Under the pieces are notes generated by a model. It was given only the letters and a program-made list of their open reading frames with translations. It was not told the origin of the DNA and made no database searches. 33,594 nucleotides of DNA from Candidatus Zhuqueibacterota bacterium. Its GTDB lineage: Bacteria; Zhuqueibacterota; Zhuqueibacteria; Zhuqueibacterales; Geothermadaptataceae. The translations under genes and the position numbers were made by a program. Positions 2,937 through 25,363 of the stretch are shown here, in pieces (within the stretch, counting starts at the first letter, position 1; every line of letters begins with the position of its first letter). The DNA lies in contig JAUZRQ010000118.1 of NCBI GenBank assembly GCA_030950365.1, forward strand, positions 1 to 33,594. The letters run 5' to 3'.

Positions 2937-3003
2937 GGCTTCTTCCACCGGGGGGTTATGATGATTTGCAAATACTCAATTATTCCCGTTTGATGAAATC
3001 TTG

Positions 3004-3120
3004 CCCGTCATCGTGAGCAGCCGCAAAGCAAATGCGCCTGTCCGACTGCTGGCGGACGGCGATCTCTTTGCGAATAGAACAATGAGATCGCGCCGTCGCT
3101 CCGCTCTTCGCGATGACGGG
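3004..3120. repeat. Palindromic intergenic repeat, copy B
   Basis: It starts CCCGTCATCGTGAG and ends CTTCGCGATGACGGG, again forming terminal inverted repeats. Inside it carries one TGTCCGACTGCTGGCGGACG-like unit near 3039-3058, the unit that is tandemly amplified in copy C. It occupies most of the space between the serpin gene and the VIT-VWA gene. The 12-mer CTGAACAGTTAC lies just past its right end and is also found just past copy C. Confidence 0.8.
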
Positions 3121-6401: not shown

Positions 6402-6558
6402 CCCGTCATTGCAGGATCCGCCAGTCGGCGGAGGCGCCTGTCCGACTATTGGCGGACGTGTCCGACTACTGGCGGACGTGTCCGACTATTGGCGGATGGC
6501 AATTTCCATGCCTTGCTCAGGGAGATTGCGTCGTCGCTACGCTCCTCGCAATGACGGG
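6402..6558. repeat. Palindromic intergenic repeat, copy C, with three tandem 20-mers
   Basis: The copy begins CCCGTCATTGC and ends CTCGCAATGACGGG, matching the ends of copies A and B. In its middle, a 20-base unit TGTCCGACTATTGGCGGACG is repeated three times without gaps (6439-6458, 6459-6478, 6479-6498) with single-base changes and a diverged last few bases in the third. The unit contains a TCCGNNNNNNGGCGGA inverted motif. This is internal expansion of the repeat, not a CRISPR: there are no spacers between units. Confidence 0.82.
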
Positions 6559-19300: not shown

Positions 19301-19445
19301 ATTTCTATGGCGTCGCATCATTTTGTTGTTTTTCAAGCTTCCAATCATTGTCGCGGATTGCCATGTTGAGATGCCACACCGGGATAAAAATCGGGGAAAT
19401 GTCTGGTTCTGAGCATCAGGCTATCGCCAAATCCAGTTTCCGCAT

Positions 19446-19476
19446 CCCCCCGGGTGCCTTCGAGGTGCCTGGGGGG
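19446..19476 (-). terminator. Hairpin downstream of the stomatin gene, no T-tract
   Basis: Seventeen bases after the stop codon the transcript could form a long irregular stem: six C paired with six G, then GG/CC and CC/GG steps separated by symmetric mismatches, around a TTCGA loop region. There is no run of U after it, so it may be a 3' stabiliser or a factor-assisted terminator, or a copy of a dispersed GTGCC/GGCAC-type element (a short GTGCC-T-GGCAC palindrome also occurs near 21217). Confidence 0.45.
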
Positions 19477-19493
19477 CACGGATGCCTCCTATT

Positions 19494-22190: not shown

Positions 22191-23938
22191 ACCGAACCCC
22201 TGATGTACCCATGAAACGAAATCCGGAACACCTGCACCAGAAAACTTTCGACCTGATCATCATCGGTGGCGGCATTTATGGCGCCTGGGTGGCCTGGGAT
22301 GCCACGCTGCGCGGGCTATCCGTGGCATTGTTTGAAAAAGACGACTTCGGCAGCGCCACATCGTCGAACAGCCTCAAAATCATCCATGGCGGACTTCGCT
22401 ATCTGCAACATGCCGACATCAAACGCATGCGCGAATCGGTGCGCGAGCGCATGATTCTCATGCGCGTGGCGCCGCATCTGGTGCATCCGTTGCCCTGTAT
22501 CATGCCGACGTACGGCCATGGCGTCAAAGGCCGGGAGGCGCTGGCCATTGCGCTGTTCCTCAATGATCTGATCACCTTCGATCGCAACAAACTGTCCGAT
22601 CCGCAGAAATATTTGCCCAAAGGGCGCATCCTGTCGCGCGAAGAGCTGCTGGAACGCTTACCGGGCATCGAAACCCAAAACCTGACCGGCGGCGCGATGT
22701 GGTACGATTGCCAGATTTATAACTCGGAACGGCTGTTGATTGGCCTGCTGGCCGGCGCTTCGGCGCGCGGAGCGGCCGTGGTCAATTACGCGCCGGTGGT
22801 GAATTTCCTGGTGCAGGATGGTCATCTGCGCGGCGTGCATGTGCACGATCGGCTATCCGGCCGCGAATACGATGTTTTTTCGCGTCTGGTGGTTAACACC
22901 AGCGGACCGTGGGTGAACAAACTGCTGGGGCTGCTACCGCAACGCGATTCCCTGCCGCAAATCCAATTTTCCAAAGCCATGAATCTGGTGGTGCGCCGCA
23001 AACTCATCGACACGTACGGCGCGGGCATTCCGAGCAAATATTCATTCCAGGACGCCGATGCACTCATCAAACAGGGCAGCCGGCTGCTATTCATGACGCC
23101 CTGGCGCCAATACACGCTCATCGGCACCACGCATGTTCCGTACGAAGGCGATCCGGACGAGTTTGCCATCACGGAAGAAGATATCCAGGAGTTGCTGCAG
23201 GAGTACAATCTGGCCTATCCGGCGCGCAGCATCCGCCGCGAGGATGTCACGCATGCCTATGGCGGACTGCTGCCCATGGAGCCAAAATCGCGGGCCGGCA
23301 ACCATGTGACGCTGACCAAACATTACAAACTACTGGATCACGAAAAAGAGCACGGGCTCAAAGGCCTGGTAACCGTGGTCGGAGTCAAATACACCACCGC
23401 GCGCGATGTGGCCGCCCGGGCCGTGGATATCGCCGTGCAGAAGCTGGGCCGCCGCGAGCGCTGCCGTACGGATCAAATCCCGATTCCGGGCGGCAATATC
23501 GAGCGGTTCGGCGCATTTTTACAGGAAGAAATCACCAAGCGACCGTGGAACCTGAACGACCCGGAAGTCCGGCATCTGGTATTGAACTATGGCCGCGAGT
23601 ATCCGAAAATTCTACACTATCTGGAAGAAAATGTTGCCTGGCGGGAACGCGTGGATCCGGAACAGGAAGTGCTGTTTGCCGAAGTGGTGCACGCCATTCG
23701 CGAGGAAATGGCACAAACCCTGCTCGATGTCGTCCGCCGGCGCACCGAGTTGGGCTCGGCCGGATGCCCGTCGGACACCGTGCTGGAAAAGGTTGCCCGC
23801 CTGATGGCCTCGGAGCTGGGCTGGGATGAGGCCAAAATACAGAAAGAAATCCAATCCGCGAAAGACCATTATCGCATTGCTGGTTATGATCCTGCCGCAC
23901 GCCATGTAAGGGAACCCAGTGCCGAGCGCGACGAATAG
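22187..23938 (+). CDS. glpD: FAD-dependent glycerol-3-phosphate dehydrogenase (GlpD/GlpA type)
   Basis: The product is 583 residues. The FAD site is complete: DLIIIGGGIYGAWVAWDA near the N-terminus, then FEKDDFGSATSSNSLKIIHGGLRYL, the characteristic GlpD segment, and RLVVNTSGPWVNKL. GGLLPMEPKS and VVGVKYTTAR match the region that closes the active site. A C-terminal helical domain follows. The enzyme oxidises sn-glycerol 3-phosphate to dihydroxyacetone phosphate, passing electrons to quinone at the membrane. It is coupled to the methyltransferase by a 4-bp overlap. The alternative start eight codons downstream is equally plausible, since neither has a good ribosome site. Family assignment is strong; that its substrate is glycerol 3-phosphate is inferred. 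Confidence 0.88.
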   Translation: MNRTPDVPMKRNPEHLHQKTFDLIIIGGGIYGAWVAWDATLRGLSVALFEKDDFGSATSSNSLKIIHGGLRYLQHADIKRMRESVRERMILMRVAPHLVHPLPCIMPTYGHGVKGREALAIALFLNDLITFDRNKLSDPQKYLPKGRILSREELLERLPGIETQNLTGGAMWYDCQIYNSERLLIGLLAGASARGAAVVNYAPVVNFLVQDGHLRGVHVHDRLSGREYDVFSRLVVNTSGPWVNKLLGLLPQRDSLPQIQFSKAMNLVVRRKLIDTYGAGIPSKYSFQDADALIKQGSRLLFMTPWRQYTLIGTTHVPYEGDPDEFAITEEDIQELLQEYNLAYPARSIRREDVTHAYGGLLPMEPKSRAGNHVTLTKHYKLLDHEKEHGLKGLVTVVGVKYTTARDVAARAVDIAVQKLGRRERCRTDQIPIPGGNIERFGAFLQEEITKRPWNLNDPEVRHLVLNYGREYPKILHYLEENVAWRERVDPEQEVLFAEVVHAIREEMAQTLLDVVRRRTELGSAGCPSDTVLEKVARLMASELGWDEAKIQKEIQSAKDHYRIAGYDPAARHVREPSAERDE

Positions 23939-24043
23939 CCCCTATTGCCTGTTATACCACCTCATTTTTGACGCGATCATCCCAATGACTTCCTTCCACC
24001 GATTTTGCTTGTGATTTTACAGCAAAGGAATTATTTTCTTTGC

Positions 24044-24087
24044 ATGGCATGGCTGTCGGTTTTTCATAAACCGTACGGCTATGCCAT
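24044..24087 (+). other. Long hairpin in the nhaA leader (candidate structured RNA or regulatory element)
   Basis: The two arms 24044-24062 and 24068-24087 pair over 19 base pairs (two G-U, one bulged T at 24074) around a TTCAT loop. The stem begins ATGGCAT and its complement ends ATGCCAT. It ends 55 bases before the nhaA ATG and about 105 bases after the preceding stop codon. No T-run follows on either side, so it does not look like an intrinsic terminator. It does not match a riboswitch I can name. Confidence 0.65.
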
Positions 24088-24142
24088 CTTTATAGCTGCC
24101 CGGTCAATTCACTCAAATCGGAACCAACCTTTCAGGAGTCCC

Positions 24143-25327
24143 ATGAAAAAGATTCTGGAAGAATTTATCGAGAAAGAATCATCGAGCGGCATTTTGCTGA
24201 TGATCGCCACGGCGCTGGCCCTGCTATTGAGCAATACTTTTTTGGCTGAATTGTATGAAGCTTTTTTGCATATTCCTGTGGAAATCCGCGTCGGCGCGCT
24301 ACATCTCGACAAAACGCTACACCACTGGGTCAACGACGGTCTGATGACCATTTTCTTTCTGCTCATTGGCCTCGAAGTCAAGCGCGAAATTCTGGAAGGC
24401 CATCTGTCGTCTATCCGGCAATCGGCCCTGCCGGTGATCGGCGCCGTGGGGGGGATGGCAATCCCGGCCACAGTTTATATACTGTTTAACTACGGCGACC
24501 CCGTGGCCATGAACGGATGGGCCATTCCCACAGCCACGGATATTGCCTTTGCGCTTGGCATCCTCTCGCTTCTCGGCAAGCGTGCCCCCGTTTCCCTGAA
24601 AATTTTTCTCATGGCGCTGGCCATCATCGACGATCTCGGCGCCATCGTCATCATTGCGGTATTTTATACGGCGCAGCTATCGGGGATGTCGTTGGCCGTG
24701 GCCGGGGTCGCCCTGCTCATTCTCGTCCTGTTGAACCGGTTCGGAGTATCCAAAAAAGCCGCTTATTTTATCATCGGCACGGTGCTATGGGTGAGCGTGC
24801 TGAAATCCGGTGTGCATGCCACATTGGCTGGCGTGGCTCTGGCGTTTACTATTCCCCTGAACGCCCGCGATGAGGAAGGCCGCTCGTTTTCGCCGCTCAA
24901 AGAAATCGAGCATGACTTGCATTTCTGGGTGGCGTTTTTCATCCTGCCGCTGTTCGCTTTTGCCAATGCCGGGGTCAACATCAGGCAGCTTTCCTTCGAT
25001 CAGCTATTCAGCCCGGTACCGATGGGCATCATGCTGGGTCTGTTCCTTGGCAAGCAGTTTGGTGTGTTTGTATTTAGTTGGATTGCGATTAAACTGGGAT
25101 TGGCCCGGTTGCCCGCCGAAAGCAATTGGCTACAATTCTACGGCGTGTCCGTGCTGACCGGCATTGGATTTACCATGAGCTTGTTCATCGGCTCTCTGGC
25201 TTTTGAAGACCCCACCATGTATCAATACACCGACAAACTGGCCATCCTGGCCGGATCGCTACTTTCCGGGCTGCTTGGCTATGGCGTGATTCGCATGACC
25301 AAAGTCGGATCGGGCGCTGCTGCTTGA
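24143..25327 (+). CDS. nhaA: NhaA-type Na+/H+ antiporter
   Basis: The product is 394 residues with about 12 transmembrane helices. AGGAG is placed four bases before the ATG and decides the start. Key residues fall at the same numbers as in the E. coli protein: D133, the paired D163-D164 in ALAIIDDLGAI that carry ions, and H225, linked to pH sensing in E. coli. The GLEVKREILEGHLSS and WAIPTATDIAFALG signatures are present. NhaA expels sodium in exchange for protons at the inner membrane. It lies 204 bp after the GlpD-type gene, with a strong hairpin in its leader, so it is probably transcribed separately. Confidence 0.96.
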   Translation: MKKILEEFIEKESSSGILLMIATALALLLSNTFLAELYEAFLHIPVEIRVGALHLDKTLHHWVNDGLMTIFFLLIGLEVKREILEGHLSSIRQSALPVIGAVGGMAIPATVYILFNYGDPVAMNGWAIPTATDIAFALGILSLLGKRAPVSLKIFLMALAIIDDLGAIVIIAVFYTAQLSGMSLAVAGVALLILVLLNRFGVSKKAAYFIIGTVLWVSVLKSGVHATLAGVALAFTIPLNARDEEGRSFSPLKEIEHDLHFWVAFFILPLFAFANAGVNIRQLSFDQLFSPVPMGIMLGLFLGKQFGVFVFSWIAIKLGLARLPAESNWLQFYGVSVLTGIGFTMSLFIGSLAFEDPTMYQYTDKLAILAGSLLSGLLGYGVIRMTKVGSGAAA

Positions 25328-25332
25328 GGACC

Positions 25333-25363
25333 ACTCTGGCAGGGGGTCAATCCCTGCCAGAGT
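25333..25363. terminator. Perfect 12-bp hairpin between convergent nhaA and phosphotransferase genes
   Basis: ACTCTGGCAGGG and CCCTGCCAGAGT pair perfectly around a 7-base loop. It begins six bases after the nhaA stop codon and overlaps the last codons of the convergent CDP-alcohol phosphotransferase gene. A bidirectional terminator is the natural reading, though neither strand has a T-tract next to the stem. Confidence 0.6.

Follow-up and report, generated by a model that had tools for sequence, protein, structure and literature searches.

A stem-loop at the predicted 5′ end of the nhaA mRNA of a Zhuqueibacterota bacterium, kept in a sister species and most likely stabilising

The nhaA gene examined here lies in a stretch of 33,594 nucleotides from Candidatus Zhuqueibacterota bacterium (assembly GCA_030950365.1, contig JAUZRQ010000118.1, positions 1 to 33,594, forward strand), referred to as the window in the rest of the paper. 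The identity of nhaA, proposed in a preliminary description made from the letters of the window, was confirmed by the NCBIfam model NF007112, which scores 577 bits against a cut-off of 408. Comparisons were made with one other genome of the genus, the sister species (G001, with L002 denoting the same contig, whose title is candidate division KSB1 bacterium). The promoter, leader and coding sequence of nhaA comprise the following features:

24009..24014 (+), predicted nhaA promoter, -35 element TTGTGA, read from the sequence; hexamer and spacing are identical in L002 1750-1778
24032..24037 (+), -10 element TATTTT, the same in L002; the predicted +1 is 24044, 7 bases on
24044..24087 (+), stem-loop of 19 bp with one bulge, at the predicted very 5′ end of the nhaA mRNA
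24088..24101 (+), short conserved tail CTTTATARCTGCCC, 13 of 14 bases identical in L002 (alignment)
24133..24138 (+), Shine-Dalgarno-like CAGGAG of nhaA, read by eye
24143..25327 (+), nhaA, Na+/H+ antiporter of 394 amino acids, above cut-off for NCBIfam NF007112 and TIGR00773

Just 3′ of nhaA, at 25334-25362, the window carries one inverted repeat, CTCTGGCAGGG/CCCTGCCAGAG, which lacks a T-tract; at the matching place in the sister (L002 3066-3461) there is an array of 3 copies of a 136-nt unit with the same inverted repeat.

Folding of the leader recovered exactly the hairpin described earlier at 24044-24087, consisting of 13 + 6 pairs, two of them G-U, with a bulged T at 24074 and a 5-nt loop. 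Its 3′ end lies 55 bases from the nhaA start codon (ATG at 24143), and both the sequence and a terminator scan agree with the earlier statement that no T-tract follows; the intervening leader of ~55 bases is weakly structured and contains the ribosome site. The RNA strand is predicted to form a stable stem-loop, as expected of a 5′-terminal stabilising element: its folding energy is -28.9 kcal/mol, compared to a mean of -12.6 in 200 dinucleotide shuffles (z -6.8), and the sister keeps the pairing. None of the 200 shuffles reached this stability, which upholds for the hairpin sequence itself the proposal that it pairs far more than expected by chance. The same cannot be said of its rarity in the genome, as a census of the window and 15 other stretches of the same genome (326,594 bases) returned 46 hairpins of at least 15 pairs, of which 2 have more pairs than the nhaA hairpin and 18 lie entirely outside crudely called open reading frames. 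Long hairpins are therefore not rare in this genome, and by eye many of those in the census resemble terminators or repeats. The nhaA hairpin was itself scored as lying inside a reading frame, since its stem begins by chance with an in-frame ATG. It stands out by sitting where the transcript is predicted to start.

This place is predicted from the position of the promoter motif in both species. The motif TTGTGA-N17-TATTTT spans 24009-24037 in the window and 1750-1778 in L002, and in both the first paired base of the stem falls exactly 7 bases past the -10 hexamer, the usual position of +1. We infer that the nhaA mRNA should start with the stem. A standard promoter scan, which requires 9 of 12 consensus bases, did not list this promoter. 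In the regions upstream of 136 open reading frames of the sampled genome, TTGNNN-N17-TANNNT is enriched, with 31 cases at spacing 17 compared to 5-17 at each remaining spacing between 10 and 25; spacings 16-18 together gave 56 motif pairs, versus 27 when the regions were reversed and 31 when they were reverse-complemented. Sigma70-like promoters are thus in use in this genome. We folded the predicted transcript starts (~-4 to +51, with mononucleotide shuffles) of 32 promoter-like sites of spacing 17 in the sample. With its start set by hand, nhaA was the only one to begin with a hairpin (z -7.2, the next being -1.8).

In the sister, the hairpin is found at L002 1785-1828, 5′ of an nhaA gene whose product shares 89% identity with that of the window. 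The upstream gene is common to both genomes; its end lies 105 bases from the hairpin in the window and ~0.9 kb away in the sister. From the end of this gene to the far part of the leader, the sole block that can be aligned is 23997-24100 of the window with 1739-1842 of L002, an ungapped stretch of 104 bases with 78% identity that corresponds to the promoter, the hairpin and a short tail; intergenic DNA outside it does not align. Since the distance to the upstream gene differs and only this block aligns, the element belongs to nhaA rather than to the 3′ end of the gene before it. The two species differ at 7 of 38 stem positions, all by transitions, yet 18 of the 19 pairs are kept in the sister, the loop-closing pair being lost. 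Two stem pairs changed on both sides, from U-A to C-G, and are compensatory, while two others changed on one side between Watson-Crick and G-U with pairing retained; the outer 7 bp are invariant. Retention with nhaA together with compensatory changes bears out the proposal of a cis-acting RNA element, and the use of G-U pairs points to an RNA rather than a DNA dyad. The probability that randomly placed substitutions would leave equally good pairing ranged from 0.0009 to 0.065 depending on the substitution model and the starting sequence, the highest value (p 0.065) coming from a transitions-only model that starts from the window sequence. The covariation count was uninformative, as 140 of 500 shuffles in its own control reached the observed value. 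The search for covariation in relatives suggested in the preliminary description thus yielded compensatory changes in the sister, but from two sequences only, so that this evidence is thin, suggestive and not conclusive.

Neither BLAST with 151 bases nor a covariance-model search at E up to 10 found a second copy of the hairpin in its own genome; both returned the locus alone, matched on the two strands because it is a palindrome. A pattern search allowing 3 mismatches returned 26 sites compared to 22 in the control, giving no repeat signal. With no further locus in the genome, neither a repeat nor the suggested mobile element end is borne out. Other sequences do recur in the sampled stretches. 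The dispersed short repeat CCGCCANNAGTCGGAC occupies 8 sites in 5 of the 16 stretches, with three in tandem in the window (window 6439-6498 and 3055; L126 3225; L129 16074; L131 8831; L132 14421). Intergenic hairpins of the GGCACC/GGTGCC type, possibly a REP-like family, occur at L131 9629-9661 and L133 17236-17274 with an exact core and, similar by eye, at 19431-19490 of the window. A contig start of the same genome (L128 1-234) carries four direct repeats of 31 nt, spaced at 66-69 nt and ending around GATTGAAAC, by appearance the end of a CRISPR array. Finally, L130 ~3000-3090, with a long stem and a TCA in the loop, looks by eye like a selenocysteine tRNA, but ARAGORN predicted no tRNA within L130 2800-3300.

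Among 82 genomes of the phylum, a covariance model built from the two sequences (R1) gave strong matches only in the genome of origin and its genus sister (E ~1e-27, 87 bits); weak matches in 7 other genomes (E 0.003-0.07, 17-21 bits) were treated as chance. We also surveyed the leaders of 87 nhaA loci, 86 of which had enough upstream DNA (L054 was dropped); L134 and L085 apparently repeat L051 and L016, and the survey excludes the distant NhaA matches L089-L091 and L093-L095. A promoter-like site of spacing 16-18 was present in 30 of the 86 leaders, and just after it a fold with z of -3 or lower was found in three: L002 (-5.0), L005 (-3.1) and L009 (-4.0), the hairpin of L009 lying 199 bases 5′ of the gene. 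The architecture is clear only in L002, borderline in L005 and doubtful in L009. We considered whether the Calditrichota-type loci L005 and L036 share it with unrelated sequence and make no such claim, as 11 of 1000 shuffles were as stable in L005, again borderline, and 741 of 1000 in L036. The element is thus restricted to the genus as far as searched. Strong hairpins do occur in other nhaA leaders (for instance L074, L075, L078 and L079), without a promoter-like site that would place them at +1. L074, L075 and L079 have in common a strong hairpin of the GGGGAAGGG/CCCTTCCCC type no more than 100 bases 5′ of nhaA, which could be the terminator of the preceding gene or a leader element.

Taken together, we consider the hairpin to be a real and probably functional 5′ mRNA element that is restricted to the genus and represents a known kind in a new setting. 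With moderate confidence, we favor the view that it is an RNA element with which the nhaA mRNA begins and whose most likely role is to stabilise the message. The E. coli ompA and papA messages have a stem-loop at the extreme 5′ end without an unpaired leader, and their ribosome site lies further on and single-stranded. The nhaA stem-loop is likewise predicted at the extreme 5′ end with the ribosome site further on, but belongs to another gene, sequence and phylum, and its stabilising role is a proposal. Transcription of the sigma70 type would start around 24044, the first paired base, and the base-paired 5′ end, if it folds in the cell as predicted, would most likely withhold the single-stranded end needed by RppH-like pyrophosphohydrolases, by the 5′-end sensor of RNase E/G and perhaps by that of RNase Y. 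The lifetime of the nhaA message would thereby be prolonged, while the weakly structured leader would keep the ribosome site. E. coli messages are described as stabilised by 5′ structures that leave no single-stranded 5′ end for RppH and RNase E (PMC3997798). Genes for RNase E/G and two RNase Y proteins were found above cut-off in the genome, and none for RNase J. It sits less well with stabilisation that the conserved tail CTTTATARCTGCCC is not explained by it alone and that other nhaA leaders do without the element.

The alternative that survives best, though we regard it as doubtful, is that nhaA expression is switched by the 5′ hairpin together with the conserved tail, in response to Na+, Li+, pH, temperature or a protein. 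nhaA is a homeostasis gene, the hairpin and the tail are conserved together, in L002 a pairing between the tail and the start codon region is predicted, and known Li+ riboswitches sit 5′ of nhaA (PMC9646797). The nhaA hairpin resembles the Li+-I and Li+-II riboswitches (nhaA-I and nhaA-II motifs) in its place in an nhaA leader, and the Na+-I riboswitch (DUF1646 motif) in its place upstream of a sodium transport gene, but it matches the covariance model of none of them. Rfam at gathering cut-offs gave no match in the whole window, and cmscan at E up to 10 on 23850-24250 listed none of the Li+-I, Li+-II or Na+-I riboswitches, returning two microRNA models and one snoRNA model far below their cut-offs. 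This agrees with the earlier remark that the hairpin does not match an ion riboswitch that could be named, and it weighs against the idea, raised alongside, of an ion-sensing RNA. The Li+ classes are described as conserved aptamers found in proteobacteria (PMC9646797), compared to one 44-nt hairpin here, a single stable helix without a multi-part aptamer, an evident alternative fold or a consistent expression platform. Pairing of the tail with the start codon is not predicted in the window sequence, where the unpaired probability is ~0.9, and outside the genus the element is absent from the genomes and leaders searched. We found no positive evidence of ion or pH sensing. It would be a long shot for the hairpin and its CTTTATARCTGCCC tail to work together at +1 as an RNA device, specific to the genus and so far undescribed, that matches the lifetime or translation of the mRNA to Na+, Li+ or pH, for instance by exposing its own 5′ end to decay.

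We also judge it unlikely that the hairpin reflects a DNA operator, with the dyad ATGGCAT...ATGCCAT at +1 to +44 bound by a repressor or an activator of nhaA. While a dyad at the transcript start with its outer 7 bp invariant would suit such a site, one pair is U-G in both species and another two are G-U in either one or the other, keeping RNA pairing and breaking DNA symmetry. The 30-bp gap between the half sites is unusual, and no regulator gene was recognised adjoining nhaA among the neighbours searched. In a genome-wide search, exact half sites occurred in only two other places, both in long open frames. The G-U pairs, and the fact that no other promoter carries the dyad, speak against an operator.

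A terminator or attenuator is very unlikely, both for the upstream gene and inside the nhaA leader. The stem is GC-rich and is followed by CTTTATA, but the sequence after it (CTTTATAGCT) lacks the T-tract of an intrinsic terminator, whereas several sampled hairpins just 3′ of genes carry long T-runs. The terminator scan omits the hairpin, and a promoter motif precedes it. A terminator of the upstream gene was rejected from the sister, where the hairpin stays with nhaA despite the ~0.9 kb to that gene. Just as improbable is a chance or neutral palindrome, or the remnant of a dispersed repeat: long hairpins are common in the sample and the covariation comes from two sequences, yet the hairpin is single-copy and its fold is kept together with the promoter while the surrounding intergenic DNA diverges. 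Repeat and mobile-end readings are likewise disfavored. A leader peptide or an N-terminal extension of NhaA was rejected, since the frame opened by the ATG at 24044, which would add 33 residues to NhaA in the window, is not conserved, the sister having a stop at codon 3 and a distance of 94 nt, out of frame.

We found no paper on nhaA leader stem-loops or on nhaA in KSB1 of hydrothermal settings, and make no wider claim. 5′-terminal stabilising hairpins are known mainly from a few E. coli messages. If the nhaA stem-loop stabilises its message, a conserved case in an ion-homeostasis gene of an uncultured lineage would show that this strategy is used far from E. coli, and it carries the simple prediction that the nhaA transcript begins at the first paired base. 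Should the element instead prove to have a sensing role, it would count as a new regulatory RNA that acts on sodium/proton antiporter genes.
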